Translations under genes and position numbers: made by a program
In this document: positions 6,620-23,428 of the stretch, piece by piece
Numbering within the stretch: the stretch's first letter is position 1
Layout of the letters: the number at the start of each line of letters is the position of its first letter
From: Pseudomonadota bacterium
GTDB taxonomy: Bacteria > Pseudomonadota > Gammaproteobacteria > Burkholderiales > Rhodocyclaceae
Direction of reading: 5' to 3'
Length of the DNA: 33,567 nucleotides
NCBI GenBank assembly: GCA_018262095.1
Contig: JAGTRW010000043.1
Location: forward strand, 1 to 33,567
Notes under the pieces: model-generated
What the model was told of the DNA's origin: nothing
Databases searched by the model: none
What the model saw: the letters and a program-made list of their open reading frames with translations, nothing else

Positions 6620-7398
6620 GAACGGTGGCCGAGCTGGCGCGATAGTTCGCGCGCCGTATCGCCGATCTGTTGGGCGAGCGGTACAAAGCGCTCGGCGGCA
6701 ATGTCGAGGATCGTTCCGACCGCGCTGAGCGCGGCGACGACATGGCCCTGGGCGTCGAGCACCGGCGCGGCGACGCAGCGGATATTGGCGATGTCCTCTT
6801 GGTCGTCGGACGCCCAGCCGCGCGCCTTGACTTCGCGCAGATGCGCGCGAAATGAATCGGCGTCGACGATGGTGTTGGCGGTTTTGCGCTGCCAGTCGTG
6901 GTGCGCCAGGATGGCGTCGAGTTCGGCCGGCGGCAGCCAGGCCAGCAGCACCTTGCCAAGCGACGAGCTGTGCAGCGACAGGCGCTTGCCGACCCAGGTG
7001 TTGACCCGGATTTCGCGGTTGCCTTCGACCTTGAGCAGGTAGACCGCTTCGTCGCCTTCCATCACGCCCAGGTGGCAGGTCAGTTGCACGTCCTGCGCCA
7101 GCTGCTTGAGCGCGGGTAGCGCCAGTTCGTTGAGCTGGCGCTGATTGGCGGCGATCGAACCGAGTTCGAACAGCCGCAGCCCGAGCACGTAGCCGCGGTT
7201 GCTCTGCATCTGCAGCGCCCCCAGTCGGCACAGCGTGGTCACCAGGTGATGGCAACTGCTGCTTGGCAATCCGAGTCCGGTTTTGATCTGAGAAAAGCTC
7301 AGGCCGGGTTGTTGCGCGACCAGTTCAAGGATGGCGAAGCCCTTGCTCAGCGCCGGGGCGACTGACTTTTCGGGCGCTGCAGGTGAAGATTCCGACAT
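6616..7398 (-). CDS. IclR-family transcriptional regulator
   Basis: A 260-residue regulator with an N-terminal winged helix-turn-helix (around residues 15-75, with L-S-F-S-Q-I-K and S-S-S-C-H-H-L-V-T-T-L) and a C-terminal effector-binding domain of the IclR type. The ribosome site is GGGAG upstream of the ATG. It is transcribed away from the DapA-superfamily gene at 7691. The 292-bp space between them holds a good sigma-70 promoter for the aldolase gene and overlapping inverted repeats of the size used by IclR proteins. It is likely a local repressor of that gene; the effector, perhaps a sugar-acid intermediate, is unknown. Confidence 0.92.
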   Translation of the reverse strand: MSESSPAAPEKSVAPALSKGFAILELVAQQPGLSFSQIKTGLGLPSSSCHHLVTTLCRLGALQMQSNRGYVLGLRLFELGSIAANQRQLNELALPALKQLAQDVQLTCHLGVMEGDEAVYLLKVEGNREIRVNTWVGKRLSLHSSSLGKVLLAWLPPAELDAILAHHDWQRKTANTIVDADSFRAHLREVKARGWASDDQEDIANIRCVAAPVLDAQGHVVAALSAVGTILDIAAERFVPLAQQIGDTARELSRQLGHRS

Positions 7399-7530
7399 GC
7401 TTGATTGACTCCCGGTTGATCAAAACGCAATCTAAACCACAACGACTCAACGGGCACAACGAAAAGCGTCGGTTTTGGGGACTCTATTCCTCACCCGCTG
7501 GGTGACTCGCAAAAAACGATTTGGCTTATT

Positions 7531-7567
7531 GTTTTTTCGTCGTGTTCGTCGTGTCCGCCGTGGTTAA
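7531..7567. repeat. candidate dispersed repeat (CGTCGTGTTCGTCGTGTCCG type)
   Basis: On the reverse strand this reads TTAACCACGGCGGACACGAC followed by GAACACGACGAA. This resembles the 'AACCACGGAGGACACAGAG' type of short intergenic repeat found in many proteobacterial genomes. Internally it is a near-tandem of CGTCGTGT / CGTCGTGT / CGCCGTGG. An open frame crosses it but looks like noise. Confidence 0.35.
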
Positions 7568-7609
7568 CTGCTTTTTCCTAGTTGATGACTGCGGCGCGCG
7601 TCCGGTCGC

Positions 7610-7638
7610 TTGTCAGCGTCAGACCGTCTGCCTATACT
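7610..7638 (+). promoter_or_regulatory. sigma-70 promoter of the DapA-superfamily gene
   Basis: A -35 element TTGTCA (7610-7615) and a -10 element TATACT (7633-7638) are separated by exactly 17 bp; each differs from consensus at one position. Transcription would begin near 7645, about 46 bases before the ATG at 7691. The ribosome site AGGGAG lies just before that ATG. Confidence 0.7.
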
Positions 7639-7651
7639 ATCCCATTCATGG

Positions 7652-7673
7652 TACGGATGTTCCGTATGTGGAA
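7652..7673. promoter_or_regulatory. putative IclR operator (two overlapping inverted repeats)
   Basis: Two perfect inverted repeats overlap just downstream of the predicted transcription start: TACGGA-N3-TCCGTA (7652-7666) and TTCC-N6-GGAA (7660-7673). IclR-family proteins bind short palindromes of about 15 bp with TTCC/GGAA-like arms. The position would block the start of transcription. Assignment to the adjacent IclR gene is by proximity. Confidence 0.55.
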
Positions 7674-7690
7674 TTATTTAGGGAGAAAAC

Positions 7691-8602
7691 ATGTCGATCG
7701 ATCGCTTGCGTGGTGTCATTCCGCCGGTTCCCACAATGTTCAACGACGACGGCAGCTTCGCTGCGCAGGGCATGGGGGTTCTCATCGACCGCCTGCTGGC
7801 GTCGGACATCGACGGCTTCCTGTTTCTCGGCAGCGCCGGCGAGTTCGCTCAGCTCTCGCACGCTGCGCGCAAGGACATCGCCGAATTCTGTGTGCGCCGC
7901 GTCGCCGGCCGCCGGCCGGTGATCATCGGCACCGCGTCGTGCTCGACCGCCGAAGTGATCGACTTGAGCAAGCACGCGGGCGCCATCGGCGCCGACGCGG
8001 TGATGGTCGTCAACCCCTACTACTCGCTGCTCTCGGAAGATCGCCTCTACACGCACTATCGGCAGATCGCCGAAGCGTCGCCGTTGCCGGTGCTGCTCTA
8101 CAACTTCCCGGCGCTCACCGGCCAGGATCTCTCGGTCGATCTGGTCGCGCGCCTGGCCAACGACTGTCCCAACATCGTCGGCATCAAGGATACCGTCGAT
8201 TGCCTGAGCCACATCCGGCGGATCATCCTCGAAGTCAAGGGCGCGCGCCCCGACTTCCTGGTCTTCTGCGGTTACGACGAATACATGGTCGATACGCTGC
8301 TGCTGGGCGGCGACGGCGTCATTCCGGCGACGTCGAATTTCGCCCCGCAGGTCAGCTGCGGCATCTACCGTGCCGTGCGCGCCGGTGATTTCGCCGCGCT
8401 CAAGGTGCTGGTGCCGCAACTAGCGCGGTTGCAAAAAATCTATTCGCTCGACGTTCCGTTTACCGGCTTGATCAAGGAAGCGATCCGCCTGTGCGGTGCC
8501 GACACGCCGGCCGCCGTGCTGGCGCCGGCGACGCCGCCCGATGCGCAGACCAGGCAGCGGCTGGTCGCCATCCTCGAACAAGTCGGCGTCTTGTCGGCCT
8601 GA
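7691..8602 (+). CDS. DapA-superfamily aldolase/lyase (dihydrodipicolinate synthase family)
   Basis: A 303-residue class I aldolase of the DHDPS/N-acetylneuraminate lyase superfamily. The Schiff-base lysine is K166 in V-G-I-K-D-T. The catalytic tyrosine is Y137 in L-L-Y-N-F-P, and the carboxylate-binding loop is G47-S-A-G-E51. True DapA enzymes have G-T-T-G-E and an Arg after the Tyr; here the loop is G-S-A-G-E and the Arg is absent (Y-N-F-P-A-L-T-G). This points to a 2-keto-3-deoxy-sugar-acid aldolase or a related lyase, not lysine biosynthesis. It is preceded by a strong promoter, a palindromic operator and a divergent IclR gene. It seems to be transcribed alone, so substrate and pathway stay open. 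Confidence 0.85.
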   Translation: MSIDRLRGVIPPVPTMFNDDGSFAAQGMGVLIDRLLASDIDGFLFLGSAGEFAQLSHAARKDIAEFCVRRVAGRRPVIIGTASCSTAEVIDLSKHAGAIGADAVMVVNPYYSLLSEDRLYTHYRQIAEASPLPVLLYNFPALTGQDLSVDLVARLANDCPNIVGIKDTVDCLSHIRRIILEVKGARPDFLVFCGYDEYMVDTLLLGGDGVIPATSNFAPQVSCGIYRAVRAGDFAALKVLVPQLARLQKIYSLDVPFTGLIKEAIRLCGADTPAAVLAPATPPDAQTRQRLVAILEQVGVLSA

Positions 8603-11854: not shown

Positions 11855-12781
11855 TCAGCTAGCCAGGCTGATCGGCGCCGGCCAGCGCCGGTCGATGCGC
11901 GCGATGATCATTTCTGAGCACAGGCGGCGCAGGGTCTGCACGTAGGGATTGGCGTTGAGGAACGACGCTTCGCCGAAGTAGATCGGGATCTTCGGCAGCG
12001 CGCTCTCCAGGCTGACCGAGGCGATGTCCTTGTCCTGCGTGTCGTTGCACCAACTCGGGATGATGGCGAAGCCCAATCCTTCCTTGACGCAGCGCTTGAC
12101 GCTCGAACAGCCTGACGTCGATACGGCGATATGCGGCTCCCGATCGTCATGCTTCAGGAAATCGAGCGCCAGATTGCGCAGCGTCTGACCCGGCTCGTAA
12201 GTGATGAACGGCCGGTCTTTTCCCCACGCCGCAATGTCGGTGGGGCGGGGCGGCGCACCCCAGGCGCGCGGGTAAACCAGCGTCAGGTGAAACGAGCAGA
12301 TCAGGTGCTGCGGGACGACTTCGTCGCCGAAATAGCGCTCGCTCATGCAAACGTCGAGGCTGCCGTCCTTGATCAGATCAGAGAGGATCGTGTCGCGCTC
12401 GTAGGCCAGAACCTCGACGTCGGGATGGATTCGATAAAAGGCGGAGAGTATCGACGGCAGCAGATAGTAGAAATACGCCTGCGGCAGGCCGATCCGGATC
12501 ACCGGACGCTCCTTGTCGACGATGAAGCTCAGACGCGCCAGCATGGTCTCGAGTTCCGGCTGCAACAGCCGGTACAGACTGCTGCCGCGCTCGGTCAGCG
12601 CGACCGTCTTGGCGCCTTGATCCGATTTGACCAGTCGTTCGCCAATCAATTGTTCGAGCCGGCGCACATGGTTGGCCGCCGATTGATAAGACATATTGAG
12701 CTTGCGCGCGGCAGCCGAAAACGATCCGTCCTGGGCGACGACGAAGAAGGTCTGAATCAGAGTCAGGCTCGCTTTTTTCAT
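11855..12781 (-). CDS. LysR-family transcriptional regulator
   Basis: A 308-residue LysR regulator. The N-terminal helix-turn-helix covers about residues 5-65 (F-S-A-A-A-R-K-L-N-M-S-Y-Q-S-A-A-N-H-V-R-R-L-E), and the rest is the periplasmic-binding-like effector domain. The ATG at 12781 follows GGAAG and matches the family start; an upstream ATG at 12838 adds 19 unlikely residues. It is transcribed away from operon A (13158), separated by 376 bp with several palindromes, the classic layout for a LysR protein that controls its divergent neighbour. It is the best candidate to act on the leader modules before both operons of the catabolic locus, probably as a substrate-responsive activator. Confidence 0.93.
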   Translation of the reverse strand: MKKASLTLIQTFFVVAQDGSFSAAARKLNMSYQSAANHVRRLEQLIGERLVKSDQGAKTVALTERGSSLYRLLQPELETMLARLSFIVDKERPVIRIGLPQAYFYYLLPSILSAFYRIHPDVEVLAYERDTILSDLIKDGSLDVCMSERYFGDEVVPQHLICSFHLTLVYPRAWGAPPRPTDIAAWGKDRPFITYEPGQTLRNLALDFLKHDDREPHIAVSTSGCSSVKRCVKEGLGFAIIPSWCNDTQDKDIASVSLESALPKIPIYFGEASFLNANPYVQTLRRLCSEMIIARIDRRWPAPISLAS

Positions 12782-12858
12782 ATTCTTCCGTTCTGCTGGG
12801 CAAATTGTCGACTTTCGAATAGAAGCGAGCGAGATCAACGCCAGTTTCGTGCCATTTC

Positions 12859-12872
12859 TTCAAGTGCTTGAA
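12859..12872. promoter_or_regulatory. palindrome in the LysR-operon A intergenic region
   Basis: TTCAAG-TG-CTTGAA is a perfect 14-bp dyad 77 bases upstream of the LysR start codon. Its size and place fit an autoregulatory LysR site, but the T-N11-A core cannot be assigned with certainty. Confidence 0.4.
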
Positions 12873-12896
12873 AGCATGAGAATCGCGCGTCTCGCA

Positions 12897-12922
12897 GATC
12901 GGTCTCTAGCGAAAAACCGATC
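12897..12922. promoter_or_regulatory. inverted repeat GATCGGT-N12-ACCGATC
   Basis: Seven-base arms (12897-12903 and 12916-12922) are perfect complements. This lies in the 376-bp intergenic region (12782-13157) that otherwise holds no convincing gene; a 60-codon open frame here on the + strand has no ribosome site. Could be an operator or a remnant. Confidence 0.3.
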
Positions 12923-13053
12923 GATGTTGGTGCGGTTCATGGCGCCGGCGCATCAATTTGGTGAGGTCGCCTCGGCGCGCAACGCGGTCTTTCTCGTGAA
13001 AAGACAGGTCACCAAGCATGGCCTTCCATAGGACTTTGCGAGAACACGATAGT

Positions 13054-13120
13054 TGCAAAAAAACAGACAAGCAGACGCTGTTCATTTGTATCGACGGATC
13101 AATCGCCCGGCCGTAATCTC
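13054..13120 (+). promoter_or_regulatory. leader module copy 1 (promoter/activator region of operon A)
   Basis: This 67-bp stretch aligns without gaps to 16802-16868, with about 47 identical bases by hand count. The conserved blocks are TGCAAAAAAAC at the left, TTCATTTGTATCGAC in the middle and TAATCTC at the right. A weak sigma-70 reading is possible with TCGACG (13091-13096) and TAATCT (13114-13119) at 17-bp spacing. The two left blocks would then sit near -65 and -40, where LysR activators bind. The operon A start codon follows 37 bases after the module. Confidence 0.6.
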
Positions 13121-13157
13121 GCCACATCAAATCACCACGCCCAATGAACCGAAACCC

Positions 13158-14318
13158 ATGTCTGCTGCGCAAAACTCTCCTCGTGTTGTCGTCATCGGCG
13201 CTGGAATCGTCGGCGCGGCGACGGCCTATTATCTGACCCGAGCCGGGGCGCAGGTGACCGTCATCGACGCGCTGACGCCGGCGGCCGGGGCCTCGGGCGC
13301 TTCCGACGGCGCCGTGTCGGTGGCGACCAAACGACCCGGCCCGATGATGCGTCTGGCGCGCGAGGCGCGCAGTCTCTACGGCGCGCTCGAGCGCGACGGC
13401 GTGCTGTCCGGTTTGTTTCATCGTCGTTCGACCTATCTGTTTGCGCGCACCGCCGAGGAGGTCGCCTTGCTCGAGAGCCATGGCGCTGACCTGGCGAACG
13501 AAGGCGAACGCGTGATTGCGCTGACGCGCAACGATCTGCTGGCGCGGATTCCGGGTTTCGGTGCCGCCATCCTGGCCGGACTCGAAGTGCCGGATGACGG
13601 TCACGCGCTCGGCTATCAGGTGGTCAATCGCTTGCTCGCGCAAGCCGGTGTCGTTGTTCGCCGCCATTGCCCGGTACGCGGACTCAGCATCGCGCAGCGA
13701 CGCGTGGTCGGCGTCGAAACCGACGATCAGCAGATTGCCGCCGACGTGGTGGTGGTCGCCGCCGGACTCGGTTCGAGCCCCTTGATGGGAATCGACGACG
13801 TGCTGGTCCCGCGCAAGGGGCAACTGATCGTCACCGATCGTGCTTCGACCAAGGGCGCGGCGCTCCCCGGGCCGCTGATGTCGGCGCGCTATCTGGTCGC
13901 CAAGCGAGCGGCCACGCCGGGGCAAAGCGGCGTCAGTCTGGTCATCGATCCGCTGCGCACCGGCCAGTTCCTGATCGGCAGCAGCCGCGAGGAGGGCTGT
14001 GCCGACCGCCAGACCGACGCGCGAACGGTCGCCGCGATTTTGCGCGACGCGCTCGAGGTCTACCCGGCGCTCGCGCGCCAGCGCGTGATCCGGACTTTCG
14101 CCGGCGTGCGTACGGCGACGCGCGACGGCCTGCCGATCGTCGGCCACCACCCGCAACTCGCGGGGCTGGTGATCGCCACCGGCTTCGAAGGCGACGGCAT
14201 CTGCCTCGGCCCCTTGATGGGCGCAGCGGCAGCGCGCCTGGCCTGCGGCCTTGAGGCGCAAATCGACATCGACTTTCTGACCCCCAAACGTTTTCCGACG
14301 CCGGCTATGGCGACCTGA
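13158..14318 (+). CDS. FAD-dependent amino/imino-acid oxidoreductase (DAO family; OoxB/HcnC/D-hydroxyproline dehydrogenase beta-like)
   Basis: A 386-residue flavoprotein of the D-amino acid oxidase fold. The N-terminal FAD site is V-V-V-I-G14-A-G16-I-V-G19, and the C-terminal FAD/substrate block is G-V-R-T-A-T-R-D-G-L-P-I-V-G with the final G-F-E-G-D-G-I. The length and lack of a signal peptide fit the catalytic beta subunit of multi-subunit amine dehydrogenases, which oxidise a C-N bond and pass electrons to partner subunits. The small 2Fe-2S protein (16977) and the FAD/NAD protein with a BFD-like tail (17239) in the sister operon are the expected partners. First gene of operon A. The substrate (D-amino acid, D-hydroxyproline, opine or sarcosine-like) cannot be read from the sequence. 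Confidence 0.85.
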   Translation: MSAAQNSPRVVVIGAGIVGAATAYYLTRAGAQVTVIDALTPAAGASGASDGAVSVATKRPGPMMRLAREARSLYGALERDGVLSGLFHRRSTYLFARTAEEVALLESHGADLANEGERVIALTRNDLLARIPGFGAAILAGLEVPDDGHALGYQVVNRLLAQAGVVVRRHCPVRGLSIAQRRVVGVETDDQQIAADVVVVAAGLGSSPLMGIDDVLVPRKGQLIVTDRASTKGAALPGPLMSARYLVAKRAATPGQSGVSLVIDPLRTGQFLIGSSREEGCADRQTDARTVAAILRDALEVYPALARQRVIRTFAGVRTATRDGLPIVGHHPQLAGLVIATGFEGDGICLGPLMGAAAARLACGLEAQIDIDFLTPKRFPTPAMAT

Positions 14319-14407
14319 AGCAAGGCCTGTCGGCATTTCCAGTGGATAGCGGTTTCGTGCGTTGCAGTCGGCGCAGGGAGCTTCGCGTCAATCAACCAAG
14401 GACTCAC

Positions 14408-15778
14408 ATGACATCAAATGTAATCAAGGTGCTCAACCCGTACTCCGGAATTTGCGTCGGCACGGTGGTCGCCGCCGACACCGCGGCGGTTGCTGCGGCA
14501 ATCAGTTCGGCACGTCGCGCCTGGCGCGAGTTTCGCTACTCGACACCGATCGAACGCAAGACGCTGCTCTTTGCGCTCGCCGAGCGTGTCGGAGAAAATG
14601 CCGAGGGCCTGGCCAGGATGATCTCGGGCGAGGTCGGCAAGACCATTGCCGAGGCGCGCAACGAGGTGCGGCGAGCGCAAAATACGCTGCGTCTTTCCGG
14701 CGAGGCGGGTCTGGTGCTGCATGGCGAAGTGTTGTCGTGCGCCGTCGTTCCCGGCGCCGCCGACAAGAGCGCGGCGCTGACTTTCGAGCCGGCCGGCGTG
14801 GTCGGCGCGATCACACCGTTCAATTATCCGCTCAACCTGCTCTGTCACAAGCTCGGTCCGGCGATCGCCGCCGGCAACGCGCTGGTCGTCAAGCCGTCGC
14901 CCAAAGCGCCGCTGACCGCCGCGTGGCTTGGCCGGCTGGCGCAGCAGGCCGGATTTCCGAGCGGGCTGGTGACTATCGTCGATGGCTATGCCGACACGGC
15001 AGTCGCGCTGGCGACCGGCGACATCGACATCCTGAGCTTTACCGGCGGAACGGCGGCCGGCCTCGCGCTCAAGAATGCGTCGGGCCTGGTGCGCTGCCTG
15101 ATGGAGCTGGGCGGCAACGATCCGCTGATCGTCATGCCCGACGCCGATCTCGAGCGCGCGGCGCGCACCGCGCTCGCCCAGCGCATGGAAATCGCCGGCC
15201 AGAGCTGCGCCGCAGCCAAGCGGCTCTATCTGCACCGCGACATTCACGACCAGATGATCGGTCGCCTGAGCACGCTGCTTGCCGCGATCCGCACCGGCGA
15301 TCCGGCCGAGGAAAGCTGCGAGATGGGGCCGGTGATCGACGAGGCGGCGGCGGCTGAAGTCGAAGCCAGAGTGCGCGGCGCGATCGCCCTGGGCGCGCGC
15401 TGCGTCGTCGGCGGCCAGCGCCGCGCAACGCTGTTCGAACCGACGCTGCTCGACGACGTTCCCGAAACGTCGGCGCTCTTCCAAAGCGAGACCTTCGGCC
15501 CGGTGATTGCCGTGCGCCGCTTCGACTCGCCGGACAGCGTGATCGACGAATTGGACGCCAGCCCGTACGGCTTGCAGGCGGGAATTTTCACCAACGACCA
15601 TGCGCTGATCAGGCGCCTCGCGCGCGAGCTGCGCGTCGGCGGCGTGATGGTCAACGAAGGGCCGGACTTCCGTGCCGAGAACGTTCCGTTCGGCGGAATC
15701 AAATCGAGCGGTCTGGGCCGTGAAGGCGTCCATGTGACGCTGCGCGAAATGAGCAATCTCAAAGTAGTGATCGACTAA
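14408..15778 (+). CDS. NAD(P)-dependent aldehyde dehydrogenase
   Basis: A 456-residue aldehyde dehydrogenase. Active-site residues are N139 (P-F-N-Y-P), K162 (V-K-P-S-P), E233 (M-E-L-G-G) and the nucleophile C267 in G-Q-S-C. The C terminus P-F-G-G-I-K-S-S-G-L-G-R-E-G is typical of the lactaldehyde/phosphonoacetaldehyde-type branch. The usual F-T-G-S-T-x-x-G reads F-T-G-G-T-A-A-G. The start at 14408 follows CAAGGA; 22 extra upstream codons look untranslated. Second gene of operon A, 89 bp after the FAD oxidoreductase. In this context it probably oxidises the semialdehyde released by the lyase/dehydrogenase step to a carboxylic acid that enters central metabolism; the exact aldehyde is inferred, not seen. 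Confidence 0.9.
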   Translation: MTSNVIKVLNPYSGICVGTVVAADTAAVAAAISSARRAWREFRYSTPIERKTLLFALAERVGENAEGLARMISGEVGKTIAEARNEVRRAQNTLRLSGEAGLVLHGEVLSCAVVPGAADKSAALTFEPAGVVGAITPFNYPLNLLCHKLGPAIAAGNALVVKPSPKAPLTAAWLGRLAQQAGFPSGLVTIVDGYADTAVALATGDIDILSFTGGTAAGLALKNASGLVRCLMELGGNDPLIVMPDADLERAARTALAQRMEIAGQSCAAAKRLYLHRDIHDQMIGRLSTLLAAIRTGDPAEESCEMGPVIDEAAAAEVEARVRGAIALGARCVVGGQRRATLFEPTLLDDVPETSALFQSETFGPVIAVRRFDSPDSVIDELDASPYGLQAGIFTNDHALIRRLARELRVGGVMVNEGPDFRAENVPFGGIKSSGLGREGVHVTLREMSNLKVVID

Positions 15779-15796
15779 GCGATGAAAGGAATCACC

Positions 15797-16717
15797 ATGC
15801 AGCAATCTTCTTTGCGCCAACGTTTGTCGGGCGTCTTTACCGCGCTCGTCACCCCGATGCAAGACGGCGCGCTCGACCTCTCCGCTTTCGAACGTCATGT
15901 CGCGGCGCAACTCGATGCCGGAATACACGGCCTGGTGCCGGTCGGAACCACCGGCGAAGCGGCGACGCTGAGCCGCGCTGAAATCGCGCAGCTCATCGGC
16001 TCGACGGTTGCGCTGGCTGGCGGGAACGCCTTTGTGATGGCCGGCGTCGGTTCGAATTCGACGACGACCACCATCGACAACGCGCGTCACGCCGCCGATC
16101 TTGGCGTCGACGGCCTGCTCGTCGTCACGCCCTATTACAACAAGCCGTCGCAGAACGGTTTGTTCGACCATTTCGCGGCAGTGGCGGCGGCGGTCGACTT
16201 GCCGATCACGCTCTACAGCGTTCCCGGCCGCACCGGCGTCGAGCTTGCCGCGCCAACCGCGGCGCGGCTGGCGGCGGCCTGCCCGAACATCGTCTCGATC
16301 AAGGAAGCCGGCGGACGCTGCGAGCGCGTCAGCGAATTGCGCCTCGCCTGCGGCGCCGACTTCGTCGTGCACTCGGGCGACGATGCGCTGACCTTGCCCT
16401 TTCTGGCGCTCGGCGCGGCGGGCGTGATCAGCGTCGCGTCCAACCTGCTGCCGCGCGAAATGGTTCGCCTCTACGACGCCTGGCAGGCGGGTGATTGCGC
16501 CTTGGCGTTGAGGCTGCACGAGGGGATTTACGACCTGCTGCGCCACCTCTTCATCGAGAGCAATCCGGTTCCGGTCAAGGCGGCGTTGGCCGCCGCCGGG
16601 CTGATGTCCGCCGAGGTCAGAGCGCCGCTTGGCGCGCTCACGACCGACTCACAGGCGGCGCTCAGGCAGAGCCTGACGCGTTTCGAAGAATGGCGCGGCG
16701 TCTCCGAACAGCCATGA
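15797..16717 (+). CDS. DapA homologue (4-hydroxy-tetrahydrodipicolinate synthase family), catabolic paralogue
   Basis: A 306-residue class I aldolase with the full set of DHDPS residues: G50-T-T-G-E54, Y113-Y-N-K-P, Y140 followed by P-G-R145-T, and the Schiff-base K169 in V-S-I-K-E-A-G-G. By residues it could make dihydrodipicolinate. However, it sits as third gene of a catabolic operon 18 bp after the aldehyde dehydrogenase, so a lyase or deaminase role is more likely (for example a pyrroline-4-hydroxy-2-carboxylate-deaminase-like step) or the reverse aldol of the pathway. The start at 15797 has AAAGGA six bases upstream; an ATG at 15782 is less well placed. It is not closely similar to the family member at 7691. 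Confidence 0.88.
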   Translation: MQQSSLRQRLSGVFTALVTPMQDGALDLSAFERHVAAQLDAGIHGLVPVGTTGEAATLSRAEIAQLIGSTVALAGGNAFVMAGVGSNSTTTTIDNARHAADLGVDGLLVVTPYYNKPSQNGLFDHFAAVAAAVDLPITLYSVPGRTGVELAAPTAARLAAACPNIVSIKEAGGRCERVSELRLACGADFVVHSGDDALTLPFLALGAAGVISVASNLLPREMVRLYDAWQAGDCALALRLHEGIYDLLRHLFIESNPVPVKAALAAAGLMSAEVRAPLGALTTDSQAALRQSLTRFEEWRGVSEQP

Positions 16718-16760
16718 GCGCGAGCGTCGCGGCGGCGGCCGGCAAAGCGTATCGCGCTGC

Positions 16761-16785
16761 GCGAGCGCGGCGATGGCGCGCTCGC
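16761..16785. terminator. 9-bp perfect hairpin between operon A and operon B
   Basis: GCGAGCGCG (16761-16769) pairs perfectly with CGCGCTCGC (16777-16785) around a 7-nt loop. It lies 43 bases after the dapA-like stop and 16 bases before leader module 2. There is no T tract, so it may be a 3'-end stabiliser or a Rho-assisted terminator that separates the two transcription units. Confidence 0.45.
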
Positions 16786-16801
16786 CTGGGCGACGCCAGC
16801 C

Positions 16802-16868
16802 TGCAAAAAAACGCACAAGTTCACCGCCTTCATTTGTATCGACTTGCCCAAACCCCGACGTTAATCTC
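16802..16868 (+). promoter_or_regulatory. leader module copy 2 (promoter/activator region of operon B)
   Basis: A gap-free match to 13054-13120, with the same blocks TGCAAAAAAAC, TTCATTTGTATCGAC and TAATCTC. TCGACT and TAATCT are again separated by 17 bp. The first start codon downstream, that of a 23-codon ORF, is 40 bases away, compared with 37 in operon A. The conservation in an otherwise unrelated intergenic region suggests common control of both operons. Confidence 0.6.
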
Positions 16869-16908
16869 ATCGTCGAGAGCGTGTCGGTTTTCACTGAGAG
16901 AAAAAGCC

Positions 16909-16980
16909 ATGGTCCTGAATCGCTATCGTCATCAACTGCCAGCCAGCGAAGCGTTGGCCCTGGCGGCTGCGTTCAAATGA
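16909..16980 (+). CDS. 23-codon leader ORF overlapping the Fe-S subunit start
   Basis: The ORF begins M-V-L-N-R-Y-R-H-Q-L-P and ends A-L-A-A-A-F-K before TGA. Its ATG lies at nearly the same distance from leader module 2 as the first gene of operon A does from module 1. It is preceded by a purine-rich GAGAGAAAAAG. Its stop codon overlaps the ATG of the next gene (AAATGA), which itself has no ribosome site of its own. This fits translational coupling. Whether the peptide has a function, or only delivers ribosomes, is open. Confidence 0.5.
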   Translation: MVLNRYRHQLPASEALALAAAFK

Positions 16981-17246
16981 GCGGCACGCTCTACTGGATG
17001 GGCGACGCCGTGGCCTTCCGTGCGGGCGAGACGGTTGCGGCGGCGCTGCGCCGCAGCGGCATCGACGACTTCGGTCCGGCGCTCGGCGAGCTGCGCGCTC
17101 GCTATTTTTGCGGTATCGGCAGTTGCCAGGCCTGTCTCGTTTCGCTCAATGGCGATTCGCTGATCGAGGCTTGCCTGACGCCAGCGCGCGAAGGCATGCG
17201 TTTGAGCGCCGCCTTGCCGCTCGCCGAGGAGCACGGCCATGAGTGA
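16977..17246 (+). CDS. (2Fe-2S) ferredoxin-like subunit (HcnA / D-hydroxyproline dehydrogenase gamma-like)
   Basis: An 89-residue small iron-sulfur protein. The plant-type 2Fe-2S ligands are C45-G-I-G-S-C50-Q-A-C53 and C66. The N terminus (F-R-A-G-E-T-V-A-A-A-L) matches the fold seen in the small subunits of hydrogen cyanide synthase and D-hydroxyproline or opine dehydrogenases. The ATG at 16977 overlaps the stop of the 23-codon ORF. Its own 3' end overlaps the next gene by 8 bp, so the Fe-S and FAD/NAD subunits are made in tight coupling. It should pass electrons within the heteromeric complex. Confidence 0.85.
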   Translation: MSGTLYWMGDAVAFRAGETVAAALRRSGIDDFGPALGELRARYFCGIGSCQACLVSLNGDSLIEACLTPAREGMRLSAALPLAEEHGHE

Positions 17247-18558
17247 GCCCGACGTTCTGGTGGTCGGCGGCGGCCCGGCCGGTGTCGCCGCGGCGATTGA
17301 ACTCGCGCAACTGGGCCTGACCGTGACGCTGGCCGAACAAGGCAGCCGTCTGGGGGGAGCGATCCACCGTCAATACGTCGGCCAGGGCGAGAGTCCGTTG
17401 GCGATTCCCGGCCGCCATCGCCGCCACTGGCAAGGGCTTGCGCTGGGGCTGGCGAACGCCGGCGAGCGCATCCGGGTCATGGTCGAAGCGGTCTTTCTTG
17501 GCGTCGACGGCGACTCGCGATTTCTGCTCGACGACCGCCGCGCCGGCAAGGTCATCGGCCTGTCGCCGAAGGCGGTCGTCCTGGCGGTCGGCGCGATCGA
17601 ACGCATCGTTCCGCGTCCAGGCTGGGAGCTTCCCGGCGTGACCACCGCCGGCGGCATGCAGCTGCAGCTCAAGGAAACCGGCGAAGCGCCGACCGGCGCG
17701 ATTCTGATTGCAGGCAACGGGCCTTTGCCGCTGGCGCTGGGGGCCCAACTGGCCGCCGCCGGCAACCCGCCGCTGGCCATTCTCGAGCGCGGCGAGCCGT
17801 GGCGTGCGGCGCTGCGCCATCCCGCGGCTGCGGTCGCTGGCCTGCGCTCGCCGGCGCACGTCGCCGAGGCCGCCGGCTACGCGCTTCGCCTGGCACGCGC
17901 CGGCGTACCGTACCGCAGCGGCTGGAGCGTCACGGCGATCGAGGCGCTGCGCCAAGGTCTGCTGGTCAGTTGCCAGCACGTCAGTGGGCGAACGATGCAG
18001 CACCGCGTTGCCCATCTCGCGTTGCACGACGGTCTGGCCACCAATAGCAGCGGATTGCCGGCGCCCGTCGTCGACGGCGTTGCCATCGTCAGGGCCGGCG
18101 ATTGTCGCGAGGTGCTCGGTGCCGACGCGGCGATTAGCGATGGCCTGCGCGCCGCGCGAACGATTGCCCGGCAGCTCTGCCCGGCGGCGCCGCAGCGCGA
18201 GCTTGCGCGCGACTTCGAGCGCGAGCTCGCGGCGGCGCGGCGCATGCAGCGCTCGATCCAGACCTTGTGCCGGGCGGCGGATTGGCCGATCGCGCCGGAC
18301 ACCGTCGTCTGTCGCTGCGAGGGCTTGCGGCGCAGCGACCTCGATTCGCTGCAGGGCGCGTCGTCGGCGCGTGAAATCCGCCTGCTCGGCCGGTTCGGAA
18401 TGGGCGCCTGCCAGGGGCGTTCGTGCCTGGCCAGCGTCAAGGCGATCACTGCCGAAGCCGGCGCTTCATTCGACATCACGGTGGCCGACCCGGTCGTTCA
18501 GCGCTGGCCGCTGCGCCCGGTTTCGGTGGTTGCGCTGGCCGCCTTCAGCGACGTCTAG
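17239..18558 (+). CDS. FAD/NAD-dependent oxidoreductase with BFD-like Fe-S tail (OoxA/HcnB/alpha-subunit-like)
   Basis: A 439-residue flavoprotein with two Rossmann motifs: V-V-G10-G-G12-P-A-G15 at the N terminus, and a second dinucleotide site around residues 153-170 (I-L-I-A-G-N-G-P). The C-terminal tail has four Cys, C358-R-C360 and C391-Q-G-R-S-C396, the spacing of a bacterioferritin-associated-ferredoxin-type [2Fe-2S] domain. This architecture is that of the alpha subunit of opine oxidases, HcnB and D-hydroxyproline dehydrogenase. With the 2Fe-2S protein upstream and the DAO-type protein in operon A, a complete three-subunit enzyme can be formed, though its genes are split over two operons. 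Confidence 0.87.
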   Translation: MSEPDVLVVGGGPAGVAAAIELAQLGLTVTLAEQGSRLGGAIHRQYVGQGESPLAIPGRHRRHWQGLALGLANAGERIRVMVEAVFLGVDGDSRFLLDDRRAGKVIGLSPKAVVLAVGAIERIVPRPGWELPGVTTAGGMQLQLKETGEAPTGAILIAGNGPLPLALGAQLAAAGNPPLAILERGEPWRAALRHPAAAVAGLRSPAHVAEAAGYALRLARAGVPYRSGWSVTAIEALRQGLLVSCQHVSGRTMQHRVAHLALHDGLATNSSGLPAPVVDGVAIVRAGDCREVLGADAAISDGLRAARTIARQLCPAAPQRELARDFERELAAARRMQRSIQTLCRAADWPIAPDTVVCRCEGLRRSDLDSLQGASSAREIRLLGRFGMGACQGRSCLASVKAITAEAGASFDITVADPVVQRWPLRPVSVVALAAFSDV

Positions 18559-18577
18559 AAAGTTCCTTTTTATCAAC

Positions 18578-18591
18578 CGGCAATTTTGCCG
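18578..18591. other. small stem-loop before the substrate-binding-protein gene
   Basis: CGGCAATTTTGCCG folds to a 5-bp stem with a 4-nt loop, 19 bases before the ATG at 18611. It could affect processing or stability of the transport part of the message. It is weak and has no true T tract. Confidence 0.3.
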
Positions 18592-18610
18592 TTCTCTTTC
18601 GGAGAAGACC

Positions 18611-19462
18611 ATGCAACAAGAAAGCAGACGTAGGTTCACGATGAACGTGCTTGCCCTATCCGCAGCCGCCTGTTTTTCGGGTACGGTGCTGGCCCAGGGG
18701 AACACCGAGGCCACCTCGACCTGGGACCGCATCGCGGCGACCAAAACGATACGCATCGGCGCGGTTCCCGGCGCGCCGCCCAACTACCAGAAGGACCCGG
18801 CCACCGGCGAGTGGAGCGGAATCATGATCGACCTGGCCAAGAACCTGGCCGCCAAGCTGAACGTTCGCCTGGAAATCCTCGAGACGACCTGGGGCAACTC
18901 GATCCTCGACCTGCAGACCAACAAGATCGACATTTTCTTCGGCCTGAACCCGACGCCGCAGCGCGCCGAAGTCATCAACTTCTCCGATCCGCTCTATCAG
19001 AACGCCTATAGCCTGATCGCCAAGAAGGGCTTCAATCCGAAGACCTGGGACGAGCTCAACAAGCCGGAAATCACCATCGCCGTCGACGTCGGTTCATCCT
19101 ACGACAACCTGGTCACCGCGATGTACGACAAGGCCAAGATCCTGCGCTTCGAGAAGTCCAACGACGCCACGCTGGCGGTGCAGACCGGCCGTGCCGACGT
19201 GCAGCCGCTGGTGGTCACGGTGTCGACCGGAATCGTCAAGAAGAACCCGAACATCGGTCATCTGGTCGTCCCCGAACCGGTCAAGGCCTCGAGCAGCAAC
19301 GCCGGATTCCGCAAGGAGGCGAGCAAGCAATGGGTGAACTACGTCAATAGCTGGATTGCCGAGACGCGCAAAGCCGGGACCGTCAATACCATCGTGCTGA
19401 CCAATCTGGACAAGCTGATGGGAATCAAGCGCAACGAGATCCCGGTCATCGTCAATTTTTGA
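18611..19462 (+). CDS. polar amino acid ABC transporter, substrate-binding protein
   Basis: A 283-residue periplasmic binding protein of the HisJ/GlnH family (SBP_bac_3). The N terminus carries S-R-R-R-F-T-M followed by a hydrophobic core ending V-L-A-Q, so it resembles a Tat-type signal. The mature part shows the family pattern: T-I-R-I-G-A-V-P-G-A-P-P, then G-I-M-I-D-L-A-K, and D-I-F-F-G-L-N-P-T-P-Q-R-A-E-V-I-N-F-S-D-P. The permease and ATPase genes follow. Because it lies in the same operon as the amine dehydrogenase subunits, it probably captures the substrate or a related amino acid. Ribosome site CGGAGAAG. A stem-loop with T run follows the gene. Confidence 0.92.
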   Translation: MQQESRRRFTMNVLALSAAACFSGTVLAQGNTEATSTWDRIAATKTIRIGAVPGAPPNYQKDPATGEWSGIMIDLAKNLAAKLNVRLEILETTWGNSILDLQTNKIDIFFGLNPTPQRAEVINFSDPLYQNAYSLIAKKGFNPKTWDELNKPEITIAVDVGSSYDNLVTAMYDKAKILRFEKSNDATLAVQTGRADVQPLVVTVSTGIVKKNPNIGHLVVPEPVKASSSNAGFRKEASKQWVNYVNSWIAETRKAGTVNTIVLTNLDKLMGIKRNEIPVIVNF

Positions 19463-19473
19463 TCCGCTGCGAT

Positions 19474-19527
19474 CGCTTCGGTCCGCTCATGGCGAGCGAT
19501 GCTGATCGGATCGAAGCGCAGTTTTTT
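19474..19527 (+). terminator. intrinsic terminator (or attenuator) inside the ABC transporter operon
   Basis: CGCTTCGGTCCG (19474-19485) pairs with CGGATCGAAGCG (19507-19518), giving 11 Watson-Crick pairs and one G-U pair. Two bases later comes a run of six T (19522-19527). Inside the loop a second hairpin (CGCTC-atggc-GAGCG, 19484-19498) would compete with the long stem. This would reduce expression of permease and ATPase relative to the binding protein. Confidence 0.65.
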
Positions 19528-19562
19528 GACTTGAGTGGATTCGTCCCAATCCAGGAGATAAC

Positions 19563-20219
19563 GTGTACCAATGGAATTTTGCCTTTCTCGTTGACTTCCG
19601 CGGCTTGTTGCTCAGCGGCGTCCTGTACACGCTGGGCTATACCGTCTTGTGCATCGTACTGGGGCTGCTGTTCGGGCTCATTGCGGGAATCGGTCAGCTG
19701 TCGCCGTCGAAGTGGATCAACTCGCCGCTCAAGGCGTATGTCGAGATCTTTCGCTGCACGCCGGTGCTGATCCAGCTGATCTGGTTCTACTACGCGCTGC
19801 CCAGCCTGCTCGGCATCGAAATGTCGGCGTCGACCGCGGCGATCCTGGCGCTCTCCTTGTACGGCGGCGCTTTCTATTCGGAGATCATCCGCGGCGGCAT
19901 CATCTCGATCGACCCGGGGCAGCCGGAAGCGGCGCGCGCGCTGGGTATGACCAAGTTCCAGATCATGCACCGCGTCGTCCTGCCACAGGCCTTGCGGCGC
20001 ATGACGCCGCCGCTGCTCAACCAGTCGATCATGCAGCTCAAGAACACTTCGCTGGTGTCGGTGCTGGCGCTGCCCGACCTGGTCTACCAGGGCCAGCTGA
20101 TCGTCCATGAGACGTACCGGCCGCTCGAAACCTATACGCTGATCGCGCTGATCTATCTGGCCATCCTGCTGCCGACGACGACGCTCGTCAAGCGACTCGA
20201 GACGCGCACTGCACTATAA
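19563..20219 (+). CDS. polar amino acid ABC transporter, permease
   Basis: A 218-residue inner-membrane permease of the HisM/GlnP family with about five membrane segments. It contains the typical sequence E-I-F-R-C-T-P-V-L-I-Q and the ATPase-contact loop (E-A-A-R-A-L-G-M-T near residue 130, followed by P-Q-A-L-R). The start is GTG at 19563, six bases after AGGAG, and no in-frame ATG fits. Only one permease gene is present, so it should work as a homodimer. It lies behind a strong stem-loop and before the ATPase gene. Confidence 0.93.
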   Translation: MYQWNFAFLVDFRGLLLSGVLYTLGYTVLCIVLGLLFGLIAGIGQLSPSKWINSPLKAYVEIFRCTPVLIQLIWFYYALPSLLGIEMSASTAAILALSLYGGAFYSEIIRGGIISIDPGQPEAARALGMTKFQIMHRVVLPQALRRMTPPLLNQSIMQLKNTSLVSVLALPDLVYQGQLIVHETYRPLETYTLIALIYLAILLPTTTLVKRLETRTAL

Positions 20220-20247
20220 ACCCCGCAACTTGCCTATGGATAAGCTC

Positions 20248-21051
20248 ATGACCGAAGCGATGATTGAAATTGACGGATTACACAAGCAGTTTGGCGACAA
20301 CGTCGTGCTCAAGGGAATTTCGATGCGCGTCGCCAAAGGCACGGTGGTCGCCCTGATCGGATCGTCGGGTTCCGGCAAGTCGACGCTGCTCAGATGCATC
20401 AATCTGCTGACGATCCCCGACGCCGGATCGGTTCGCGTCGGCTCTCACGTCATGACCTATTCGGGTGATAGCACCCAGTTGCCCAAGGATCGCGAGCAGG
20501 CGGCGTTTCGCGCCAATACCGGGATGGTCTTCCAGCATTTCAACCTGTTTCCGCACATGACCGTGTTGCACAACGTGATGGAAGGCATGGTGACGGTGTT
20601 GCGCAAGCCAAGGGCGCAGGCTGAACAAGAGGCCATCGCACTGCTTGAGAAAGTCGGCCTGCGCGACAAGGCCGGTGAGTTCCCGCACTGCCTCTCGGGC
20701 GGGCAGAAGCAGCGCGTGGCGATCGCGCGTGCGCTGGCGATGCAGCCGCAGGTGATGCTCTTCGACGAGGCGACTTCAGCGCTCGACCCCGAACTGGTCG
20801 GCGAGGTGCAAGCGGTGATGCGCGCGCTCGCCGACGACGGCATGACGATGATCATCGTCACGCACGAGATTTCGTTTGCCCGCGAACTGGCCGACGAAGT
20901 CGTCTTCATGGGCGACGGCGTCGTCGTCGAAAGCGGACCGGCCAAGGACGTCATCGACAACCCCCGGCAGAGCGCGACGAGGCTGTTTCTGTCGCGCTTC
21001 AACGGCAAGTCGCCCGGCCGCGATGAGTCGCCTCGGGTCAACCGCTGCTGA
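20248..21051 (+). CDS. polar amino acid ABC transporter, ATP-binding protein
   Basis: A 267-residue ATPase of the GlnQ/HisP family. Walker A is G-S-S-G-S-G-K-S-T, the Q loop is in M-V-F-Q-H-F-N-L-F-P-H, the signature is L-S-G-G-Q-K-Q-R, Walker B is V-M-L-F-D-E-A-T-S-A-L-D, and the switch His is in V-T-H-E. The start is uncertain: ATG at 20248 has GGATAAG upstream, while ATG 20236 and TTG 20230 are in frame and also possible. It closes the transport module with the genes at 18611 and 19563. Confidence 0.93.
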   Translation: MTEAMIEIDGLHKQFGDNVVLKGISMRVAKGTVVALIGSSGSGKSTLLRCINLLTIPDAGSVRVGSHVMTYSGDSTQLPKDREQAAFRANTGMVFQHFNLFPHMTVLHNVMEGMVTVLRKPRAQAEQEAIALLEKVGLRDKAGEFPHCLSGGQKQRVAIARALAMQPQVMLFDEATSALDPELVGEVQAVMRALADDGMTMIIVTHEISFARELADEVVFMGDGVVVESGPAKDVIDNPRQSATRLFLSRFNGKSPGRDESPRVNRC

Positions 21052-21087
21052 GCCGGCAGCCTAGCCTTTTCAATATTGGAGTTAGCC

Positions 21088-22185
21088 ATGTCTACTCAAT
21101 CGTCCAAACGCAATGTCCTGGTCGTCGGCGCCGGCAGACTGGGGTCGGCGATCATCAGGCGCCTGCAGGCCAGCGAAAACTATGGCGTCAGCATCGCCGA
21201 TCCGCACCGTGAGACCTTGCAGAGGAACCGAGCGATGGGGGTTGAAGGCGTCGAGCTGTGCGGAACGCAATATTTGCCGATCCTCAAAAACGCCATGCAG
21301 AACGTCTCGGCGGTGATCTGCGCGGCGCCCGATTTTGTCGCCCTCGACGTCGCGCGCGCCGCGCTTGAATGCGGCTGCCATTACCTCGACGCTGCGGAGA
21401 ACCCGGCGACACGCAGTCAGATCGGCGCGCTCGCCGCGGGCGCCGGGTCGGCTTTCGTCCCGGGCTGCGGGCTGGCGCCTGGTTACGTCAGTTCGCTGGC
21501 GGCCGAGGTCTTGCGCGAAGCCGGGCCGGGCGCCGAAATCACGGTCTATGTCGGTGCCTTGCCGAAGCAGCGGATCAATCGCCTCGGCTACGGAAACATG
21601 TGGGGAATCGACGGCCTGATGACCGAATACACGTCGCCGTGTCGCGCCATCCGCGCTCGACAGATCGTCGATCTGTTGCCCTTGTCCGAGCTCGAGGATT
21701 TCCATTTCAAGGGAATGAAGTTCGAAGCGTTTACCACCGCCGGAACGCTCGACGATCTGGTGCAGTCGAACGCCGGTCGGGTCAATGGCCTGGCCTTCAA
21801 GACGATACGCTATCCGGGCCATCTCGATTACATGAAGCTGCTGATCGACGACCTCGGCTTGGGCGCCCGTACCGCGATGCTCAAAAGCCTGCTGCTCAAC
21901 GGACTGCCCAGGGTCGATGCCGACCAGCTGATCGTCTGCGTCGAAGCGCGCGCGGCAGCCGGCACCGATCTTCCGCTTCGCCGCGAACTGCACTTCACGT
22001 CGACCGAACTGCCCGGCGGGCAATCCGAAAGTTCGGTGGCGAGCGTTTCGGCTGATCATGTCTGTTCGGTGATGGATCTGCTGTGCGGCGAGAGCCTGCC
22101 GGCGCATGGGCTGCTTTCGCATTCGGAAATCAGCTTGGGCACGCTGTCGCAAAGCGTCTTTTTCAAACCGCTCGATCAAGGCTAG
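21088..22185 (+). CDS. saccharopine-dehydrogenase-like oxidoreductase
   Basis: A 365-residue protein of the saccharopine dehydrogenase / L-lysine dehydrogenase superfamily. The NAD(P) site is V-L-V-V-G-A-G-R-L-G-S near residues 10-20; then come C-G-C-H-Y-L-D-A-A and P-G-C-G-L-A-P-G-Y, a conserved family motif. The rest is the C-terminal substrate domain. Family members oxidise or reduce secondary amines of the saccharopine type, which are themselves opine-like (N-carboxyalkyl amino acids). The gene follows the ABC importer by 36 bp with ribosome site TTGGAG and is probably the last gene of operon B. In this setting it may process the opine or imine intermediate. Inference; the substrate is unknown. 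Confidence 0.82.
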   Translation: MSTQSSKRNVLVVGAGRLGSAIIRRLQASENYGVSIADPHRETLQRNRAMGVEGVELCGTQYLPILKNAMQNVSAVICAAPDFVALDVARAALECGCHYLDAAENPATRSQIGALAAGAGSAFVPGCGLAPGYVSSLAAEVLREAGPGAEITVYVGALPKQRINRLGYGNMWGIDGLMTEYTSPCRAIRARQIVDLLPLSELEDFHFKGMKFEAFTTAGTLDDLVQSNAGRVNGLAFKTIRYPGHLDYMKLLIDDLGLGARTAMLKSLLLNGLPRVDADQLIVCVEARAAAGTDLPLRRELHFTSTELPGGQSESSVASVSADHVCSVMDLLCGESLPAHGLLSHSEISLGTLSQSVFFKPLDQG

Positions 22186-22360: not shown

Positions 22361-23428
22361 ATGAGCACGCTATTCGACCCGCTCAACGCCGGTGCGCTGA
22401 CCTTGCCCAATCGCCTGCTGATGGCGCCGCTGACGCGCTGTCGCGCCGGCGCCGAGCACCTGCCGAACGCGCTGATGGCGCAGTACTACGCGCAGCGTGC
22501 CAGCGCCGGGCTGATCGTCGCCGAGGCGACGATGGCGATCGAGGGCAATTCGTCGTTCTGGATGGAACCTGGAATTTACAATGCCGCCCAGGTCGCCGGC
22601 TGGCAACTGACGACCGCTGCCGTGCATGCGGCGGGCGGCCGCATCGTGCTCCAGCTCTGGCACGGCGGGCGCGCCTGCCACCCGCTGCTCAACGGTGGCG
22701 CGCAGCCGGTGGCGCCCAGTCCTTTGATGATCACCGGCGACGAGGTACGCACGCCGCAGGGCAAGCAGCCCTACGTCGTTCCGCGTGAATTGCGCGACGA
22801 CGAACTGCCGGCGATCGTTGCGGGCTTCGCCAAGGCCGCCGAAAATGCCAAGGCGGCGGGCTTTGACGGCGTCGAAGTGCACGGCGCCAACGGCTACCTG
22901 CTCGACGAATTCCTGCGCGACGGCGCCAACCAGCGCGTCGGCCGCTATGGCGGCAGCGTCGACAACCGCGCCCGGCTGATGTTCGAAGTGATCGAAGCGG
23001 TGAGCCGCGTGTGGGGCAGCGATCGGGTCGGCTTGCGTCTGTCGCCGCTCAACAGCTACAACAGCATGATCGACAGCGACCCGATCGGCCTTTCGACCTG
23101 GCTCGCCAAGCGGCTCAACGACTTCGACCTCGCCTACCTGCATCTGATGCGCGGCGATTTCCTGCAGCAACAGCGCGGCGACGTGATGACGCCGGTGCGT
23201 GCCAATTACCGCGGCGTGCTGATCGGCAATATGGGCTACACGGCCGTCGAGGCCAGCGCCGCGATCGCGCAGGGCAAAGTCGATGGCGTCGCCTTCGGCA
23301 CCGCTTTCCTGGCCAATCCGGACCTGCCGGCGCGGATTGCGGCCGGCGCGCCGCTCAATGCGCCGCAGCCGGCGAGCTTCTACACGCCGGGGCCCGAGGG
23401 CTATACCGATTATCCGTCGTGGTCGTGA
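22361..23428 (+). CDS. Old Yellow Enzyme family alkene reductase
   Basis: A 355-residue FMN-dependent ene-reductase of the NemA/OPR type, reducing C=C bonds next to carbonyl or nitro groups with NAD(P)H. Features are the N-terminal barrel start (N-R-L-L-M-A-P-L-T-R-C-R), L-Q-L-W-H-G-G-R, and the substrate motif V-H-G-A-N-G-Y-L-L-D-E-F-L. In that motif the first H and N bind the carbonyl and Y is the proton donor. The block R-Y-G-G-S-V-D-N-R-A-R-L follows. Start at 22361; the ribosome site is poor (AAAGAAAG). The 175 bp before it hold no clear promoter. The thioredoxin-like gene begins 9 bp after it. Confidence 0.9.
   Translation: MSTLFDPLNAGALTLPNRLLMAPLTRCRAGAEHLPNALMAQYYAQRASAGLIVAEATMAIEGNSSFWMEPGIYNAAQVAGWQLTTAAVHAAGGRIVLQLWHGGRACHPLLNGGAQPVAPSPLMITGDEVRTPQGKQPYVVPRELRDDELPAIVAGFAKAAENAKAAGFDGVEVHGANGYLLDEFLRDGANQRVGRYGGSVDNRARLMFEVIEAVSRVWGSDRVGLRLSPLNSYNSMIDSDPIGLSTWLAKRLNDFDLAYLHLMRGDFLQQQRGDVMTPVRANYRGVLIGNMGYTAVEASAAIAQGKVDGVAFGTAFLANPDLPARIAAGAPLNAPQPASFYTPGPEGYTDYPSWS

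Follow-up and report, generated by a model that had tools for sequence, protein, structure and literature searches.

In the trans-4-hydroxy-L-proline pathway (LhpA/B/E/F/C; SCO6289-6293 in S. coelicolor), a three-subunit dehydrogenase made of a D-amino-acid-oxidase (DAO)-type flavoprotein, a 2Fe-2S protein and an FAD protein is followed by a DapA-family enzyme and then by an aldehyde dehydrogenase (ALDH). The opine oxidase (OoxAB) and HcnABC systems have the same dehydrogenase make-up and an SBP_bac_3 importer and, to our knowledge, are without DapA, DapB, ALDH or a saccharopine-dehydrogenase-fold enzyme (SDH). The 33,567-nucleotide contig JAGTRW010000043.1 of a Rhodocyclaceae bacterium, referred to here as the window, is one whole contig of assembly GCA_018262095.1 (4.8 Mb, 82 contigs, 97.7% complete) and carries a gene cluster at 11,855-22,185 that resembles both systems. 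The cluster shares the order of enzyme families with the hydroxyproline pathway and differs from it in that its DapA (DapA2) is of the dihydrodipicolinate synthase (DHDPS) type, its DAO falls outside the hydroxyproline-type group, no Pro_racemase is present, and an SDH and, in relatives, a DapB are added. With the opine systems it shares the subunit make-up of the dehydrogenase and the importer type.

A third comparison is the diaminopimelate (DAP) pathway of lysine biosynthesis (LysC, Asd, DapA and DapB), with which the cluster shares enzyme families and very likely intermediates. The cluster differs from that pathway in holding paralogues that lack several of the presumed lysine-feedback residues, in most loci a non-phosphorylating ALDH, an importer and a LysR regulator, and it would run in the reverse direction. 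DAP is a cell-wall amino acid that is found free in seawater, and marine DAP users (Thalassospira and others) decarboxylate it to lysine via LysA, the one published catabolic route that we found; the authors leave other routes open (PMC9602339). If DAP is the substrate, the cluster would have in common with these bacteria the use of external DAP, but it would split the molecule to pyruvate and aspartate instead of converting it to lysine. In the open-licence literature we recognised no paper on this cluster, which does not prove its absence elsewhere. We hypothesize that the window holds one catabolic regulon that breaks down a DAP- or piperidine-2,6-dicarboxylate-like compound backwards through DapB and DapA, and we give this best explanation close to an even chance of being right.

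The window carries a single regulon, a rearranged form of a cluster that is widespread in other genomes, among them those of many bacteria from soil. By tblastn, the plasmids Chelatococcus pCO-6 and Martelella pMM593 were found to carry the same genes close together, and a DAO alignment scan of named genomes with two DAO peptide patterns yielded 78 further loci (the distinct stretches among the best 80 of 90 confirmed), mostly alpha- and betaproteobacterial by title. This is the outcome of the search for the gene set in other genomes that the first-pass annotation, made from the DNA letters of the window, had proposed. The comparison set comprises 82 loci, namely the window, L038, L039, L041 and the scan loci L042-L119, and includes the near-duplicate pairs L038/L112 and L039/L108; L040 (Sinorhizobium meliloti pSymA) and L011 were inspected and left uncounted. 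Gene calls were made with identity cut-offs and 60% coverage. Because the scan loci were chosen by DAO patterns, the presence of DAO in 82/82 loci is by construction. The FAD protein and the 2Fe-2S protein were each called in 80 loci, the binding protein in 75, the permease in 73, the ATPase and the LysR regulator in 71 each, DapA2 in 65, ALDH in 64, SDH in 62, DapB in 44 and a racemase in 17. The general layout is LysR | DAO-2Fe2S-FAD-ALDH-(DapB)-DapA-(SBP)-permease-ATPase-SDH-(racemase), where SBP is the solute-binding protein and the LysR relative, where called, is divergent beside DAO in most loci. Among the 65 loci with DapA2, 64 have LysR, 63 ALDH, 62 SDH and 44 a DapB like that of Martelella. 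The commonest order, DAO-2Fe2S-FAD-ALDH-DapB-DapA2-permease-ATPase-SDH, is seen in 31 loci, and two close variants account for 11 and 10. In public annotation the genes are named singly, as dapA, FAD oxidoreductase or saccharopine dehydrogenase. A survey by eye of further conserved neighbours, limited to clusters in at least three loci, brought up just transporters of a general kind and genes of local occurrence; Asd, aspartokinase and the extra DapBs escaped it because each occurs in one or two loci.

All genes that the first-pass annotation had named at 13,158-22,185 are present, on the + strand and in their places, as judged by family profile matches (Table 1). The dehydrogenase make-up is complete in the window (DAO, Fer2_4 protein and FAD/NAD protein), and the CxC...CxxxxC tail noted for the last of these corresponds to C358/C360 and C391/C396, each kept in at least 97% of 80 homologues. 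The window DAO is 61%, 49% and 48% identical to the Chelatococcus, Martelella and Ensifer copies, respectively.

Which reaction would the DapA-family protein catalyse? Judged by its sequence, DapA2 is a DHDPS of the lysine-pathway type in which several lysine-feedback residues have been lost. The DapA2s form one group next to the housekeeping DapAs (tree support 86/85). The full set of DHDPS residues ascribed earlier to the window protein (T44, T45, Y107, Y133, R138 and K161, which we take to be the catalytic ones) is indeed there and is kept in DapA2 of 65/65 loci. At the positions presumably involved in lysine feedback, A48 replaces S48 in 65/65, and H53, H56 and E84 occur in 0/65; as a control, four housekeeping-type DapAs (own contig C79, L121, L124 and L128) all have S48 and E84, with H53 in two and H56 in three. 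The window's genome has nine DHDPS-family matches, the best of which lies on C79 and is likely the housekeeping dapA, while DapA2 is another. A DapB lies near DapA2 in 46/65 loci (the 44 Martelella-like ones, plus those of L057 and L060, which are over the TIGR00036 cut-off), the Martelella cluster DapB has both DapB domains, and the window's own genome has a DapB outside the window. Of the DapB positions that we take to be diagnostic (K163, SGT and H159), K163 is kept in 42/44 cluster DapBs.

The best evidence for the step after DapA2 comes from the loci in which ALDH is missing. ALDH is absent in two DapA2 loci only, L061 and L099, and these are exactly the loci that hold Asd and aspartokinase (LysC); in both, SDH is followed directly by Asd and aspartokinase and then by a sodium/solute symporter. 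Neither gene was found in any of the other 80 stretches. In the L099 genome another Asd is encoded outside the cluster. The rationale for assigning ALDH to the oxidation of aspartate semialdehyde to aspartate is this replacement, from which we infer the activity. Taken together, the DapA type, the joined DapB or Asd and LysC, and the kinship of the SDH point to tetrahydrodipicolinate (THDP) and aspartate semialdehyde as the probable intermediates.

The SDH was modelled with high confidence (predicted local distance difference test score, pLDDT, 93.8). Its best match in the PDB is 3abi, L-lysine dehydrogenase (template modelling score, TM, 0.81/0.84), followed by saccharopine and carboxyspermidine dehydrogenases. 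By fold and by tree, its closest kin are proteins of the lysine-6-dehydrogenase type. THDP corresponds to the intermediate of the lysine-6-dehydrogenase/piperidine-6-carboxylate pathway with a carboxyl group added. The SDH was called in 62/65 loci with DapA2 and in 0/17 loci without it, of which at least three (L086, L097 and L107) end early, shortly after DAO. Loci for lysine 6-dehydrogenase and piperidine-6-carboxylate dehydrogenase share the SDH fold with the cluster. The nearest other SDH family (15 loci) adjoins an aldehyde dehydrogenase in 6/15 short loci, and in the three of these that were tested the neighbour, cut by the locus end, best matches L-piperidine-6-carboxylate dehydrogenase at 659-720 bits against a cut-off of 730. 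The two SDH families have 43 conserved positions in common but form separate clades (100/100, no outgroup) and differ in gene neighbours, the cluster SDH sitting with DapA, DapB and another ALDH. Lrp-like genes were read by eye beside the nearest family; the one tested (L034) had no NCBIfam match at E 1e-30.

The first-pass annotation had also drawn attention to the division of the dehydrogenase between two units, the catalytic part in one and the electron-transfer part in the other. This layout is real, and the units are separated by a 259-nt gap; as a meaningful design it does not stand, because it is seen only in the window, and we reject it as a key feature. The window order, DAO-ALDH-DapA2-2Fe2S-FAD-SBP-permease-ATPase-SDH, occurs in 1/82 loci. 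The DAO and 2Fe-2S genes are on one strand in 80/82 loci and lie far apart only in the window (2.66 kb) and in L096 (1.46 kb), so that the split is a local oddity. Moreover, the second unit carries a copy of the upstream element of the cluster, and the window therefore holds one regulon. Two 67-nt copies of this element, a direct repeat with 70% of letters alike, precede DAO and the 2Fe-2S gene, the latter copy lying in the gap. The pattern of their shared letters has two real matches in the window against a mean of 0.00 in 100 shuffles. A 40-nt pattern of the element, with up to 3 mismatches allowed, occurs at two places in the assembly, both of them the window copies, and at none in a backward control, and the 15-nt core with up to 2 mismatches occurs at four further places in the genome against one in the backward control. 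The shorter core TTGTATCGA has 49 occurrences in the 1.67 Mb of the 82 loci, whereas 9-mers with its letters shuffled (60 of them) occur 3.3 times on average and 16 times at most. In 45 loci a single such core sits on the DAO strand, 58-121 nt ahead of the aligned start of that gene; three further occurrences are in the LysR-DAO gap on the opposite strand, and the remaining one is the second copy in the window. The exact core is absent upstream of DAO in 37/82 loci. The element is a putative LysR operator, and the window regulon is probably LysR-controlled.

A pathway can be proposed from these genes. The ABC importer (18,611-21,051) would take up an amino diacid of the DAP or piperidine-2,6-dicarboxylate kind. 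In some relatives a racemase may preset the stereocentre; this protein (PF01177) occurs in 17/82 loci and keeps two cysteines in 17/17, and pyridoxal-phosphate-independent racemases carry two cysteines. The DAO, 2Fe-2S and FAD dehydrogenase would oxidise a D-type centre to give THDP, and the NAD-linked, lysine-6-dehydrogenase-like SDH may do the same at an L-type centre. DapB, either of the cluster or housekeeping, would then oxidise THDP to 4-hydroxy-tetrahydrodipicolinate (HTPA), which DapA2 would cleave to pyruvate and L-aspartate semialdehyde. Finally, ALDH, or Asd with aspartokinase, would convert the semialdehyde to aspartate and thereby pull the sequence toward breakdown. The importer, the divergent LysR and the non-phosphorylating ALDH favour this direction. 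The broader proposal, put forward tentatively and at somewhat short of even chances, is a dedicated operon that has spread horizontally among Proteobacteria and in which the opening part of lysine biosynthesis is reversed to degrade a compound of the DAP or piperidine-2,6-dicarboxylate type, derived from cell walls or soil, with ALDH or Asd and aspartokinase as the pull. If true, it would explain a conserved cluster whose genes are annotated one by one, and it would mean that DHDPS, usually taken as biosynthetic, can serve breakdown; the gene set offers a direct genetic test.

Several observations weigh against this reverse-lysine pathway. DapA and DapB normally run toward synthesis, and for this reason their reversal would need a strong pull. 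All 65 DapA2s retain N80 and Y106 of the lysine site, and housekeeping DapAs vary too at positions 53 and 56. No DapB is found in the stretch in 19/65 DapA2 loci, the window among them, and 42/44 cluster DapBs have Tyr for the presumed catalytic His159, so that this DapB could do something else. The L061 genome bin has just the one Asd, that of the cluster. Seven Rhodoferax-type loci consist of the dehydrogenase and importer only, or of the dehydrogenase alone, and 12 of the 17 searched genomes without DapA2 gave no match above 45% identity. No sigma-70-like site was detected by a promoter scan at the two copies of the upstream element. The binding protein is a further such point. Its carboxylate Arg, as we take it to be, is kept in 75/75, and the presumed alpha-amino-binding Asp is kept in 0/75, the position holding Thr in 63, Val in 11 and Ala in one; Asp is there in 4/5 aligned chains of known structure, and the fifth, a dehydratase, is also without it. 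This loss speaks against an ordinary alpha-amino acid, DAP for instance, and favours a cyclic or N-substituted ligand, for example piperidine-2,6-dicarboxylate, over DAP as the candidate.

The same feature of the binding protein would suit an alternative hypothesis, namely the breakdown of an opine or metallophore. Here the substrate would be an amino acid of the nicotianamine or staphylopine kind, N-substituted and bearing a 3-amino-3-carboxypropyl part; the dehydrogenase and SDH would cut C-N bonds, freeing aspartate semialdehyde and perhaps pyruvate, and ALDH, DapA and DapB would dispose of these. The three-part dehydrogenase resembles, as far as we know the family, opine oxidases, and the fold neighbours of the SDH include saccharopine and carboxyspermidine dehydrogenases. 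However, with ALDH already there, disposing of the semialdehyde by way of DapA and DapB would use up pyruvate and reductant. The SDH is nearer to the lysine-6-dehydrogenase type, and the letters of the HEE triad, named for carboxyspermidine dehydrogenase (PMC10413350), appear in just 1/62 cluster SDHs. We regard this hypothesis as unlikely.

Could the substrate instead already bear the hydroxyl group? With 4-hydroxy-piperidine-2,6-dicarboxylate or 4-hydroxy-DAP, the dehydrogenase product would be HTPA itself, which DapA would cleave directly, as in a hydroxyproline-like pathway one carbon larger. The 19 loci without DapB would then need no reductase step, and the order of steps would parallel that of the hydroxyproline pathway as set out in PMC6608401. 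On the other hand, the DapB of 46/65 loci would be left without a clear job. We know of no abundant natural source of such a substrate, and we consider this route quite unlikely. Improbable as well, and a little more so, is a biosynthetic role in which DapA and DapB, joined by LysC and Asd at two of the loci, make THDP from aspartate and pyruvate for a product of SDH and DAO. The loss of several feedback residues in DapA2 would fit such a role, and the genes for aspartokinase, Asd and DapA in L061 and L099, accompanied in L099 by DapB, would be enough for THDP synthesis; the importer and LysR, however, suit uptake and breakdown, and the ALDH of 63/65 loci would waste aspartate semialdehyde.

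The standard hydroxyproline pathway was rejected on the basis of three comparisons. First, an epimerase is not found, with zero PF05544 (Pro_racemase) matches at E 0.001 in the window's own 97.7% complete assembly; 8/10 searched relatives have matches over the cut-off. Second, the DapA residues differ. In the 15 stretches examined, which cover 16 of the 21 Pro_racemase matches listed, seven DapA-family proteins lie near Pro_racemase, and those of L162, L164, L166, L169 and L172 lack both R138 and Y107, while that of L167 lacks R138 only; DapA2 keeps both residues in 65/65. The seventh, from L160 (Trinickia, G493:C4), is a DHDPS-type gene within 2 kb of a Pro_racemase gene and keeps both. Third, the DAO/FAD pairs near Pro_racemase in three genomes (L162, L165 and L166) belong to separate loci and are 29-32% alike to those of the window. 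In the DAO tree their DAOs group with a DAO from contig C10 of the window's own genome (97/88), and the window's DAO falls in a 79-row clade (91/89) that does not include them; in this tree, whose branches are long, the cluster rows L105, L113, L116 and L119 have no firm place relative to the hydroxyproline-type DAOs. A variant pathway for hydroxyproline or 3-hydroxyproline with an unusual or missing epimerase, which the matching order of enzyme families (PMC6608401) and the L160 protein would suit, is very improbable given these same three differences. The earlier view that the locus matches neither template, hydroxyproline or classical opine, holds, and, as that view suggested, a substrate of opine-like or D-amino-acid-like kind is likely to be degraded by a new route.

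Table 1. Features of the regulon in the window
Feature	Coordinates	Strand	Remarks
LysR-family regulator, divergent from DAO	11855..12781	-	PF00126/PF03466; start codon uncertain
Upstream element, copy 1	13054..13120	+	67-nt direct repeat; core TTCATTTGTATCGAC at 13081-13095
DAO-type FAD dehydrogenase, catalytic subunit	13158..14318	+	PF01266, 203 bits
Aldehyde dehydrogenase (ALDH)	14408..15778	+	PF00171; putative aspartate semialdehyde oxidation
DapA2, DHDPS-type lyase	15797..16717	+	TIGR00674, 309 bits (cut-off 206); putative cleavage direction
Upstream element, copy 2, before second unit	16802..16868	+	core TTCATTTGTATCGAC at 16829-16843
2Fe-2S subunit	16977..17246	+	Fer2_4, 54 bits
FAD/NAD subunit, CxC...CxxxxC tail	17239..18558	+	profile match and conserved cysteines
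Solute-binding protein, SBP_bac_3	18611..19462	+	Val in place of usual alpha-amino-binding Asp
ABC permease	19563..20219	+	PF00528
ABC ATPase	20230..21051	+	TcyN (cystine type) is the highest-scoring NCBIfam model, 313 bits, cut-off 406
Saccharopine-dehydrogenase-fold enzyme (SDH)	21088..22185	+	nearest lysine-6-dehydrogenase type

The origin of the window locus can be approached through its relatives. A DAO match at 1e-70 was found in 0/198 other genomes of its own family, with only nine candidates scored in many genomes, and this suggests that the cluster was gained horizontally. For the importer the closest counterparts are in Rhodoferax-type loci (median identity 70-73%), where ALDH, DapA2 and SDH are missing. 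ALDH and DapA2 have theirs in Bosea, Chelatococcus and Paraburkholderia, with medians of 67-70% and 64-65%, respectively. Because these parts are nearest to different loci, the window locus looks like a mosaic.

Other genes in the same genome and in the compared loci were noted along the way. At 6616-8602 of the window, an IclR regulator is divergent from a second DapA-family gene, DapA1 (7691-8602); DapA1 has Leu at 138 and Ser/Ala at 44/45, adjoins the IclR regulator and was left out of the system as what is probably a separate lyase. On contig C10 (L011:7257-12884), a DAO, an FAD/Fer2_BFD protein and a DapA-family gene share one locus with, by eye, a short-chain dehydrogenase/reductase (SDR), an iron-alcohol-dehydrogenase-like gene and a peptide-type ABC importer. 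This separate locus, whose genes are 27-34% alike to those of the window, was not counted as part of the system and is perhaps a different opine-like degradation cluster. In Sinorhizobium meliloti, a reduced relative of the cluster is found in L040 and L100, where the LysR-DAO-2Fe2S-FAD set is not accompanied by DapA2; the pSymA set adjoins, by eye, peptide-type ABC genes. In Mesorhizobium sp. 1M-11 (L059:4144-18074), a related dehydrogenase is accompanied by two racemases. By eye, the locus further holds an SDR, a thiamine-diphosphate-enzyme-like gene, a different ALDH and a DapA-family gene that does not resemble DapA2, and it may encode a sister pathway acting on another substrate. Directly after the window SDH lies an old-yellow-enzyme-type reductase (22361-23428), of which no relative was called in the other 81 loci.

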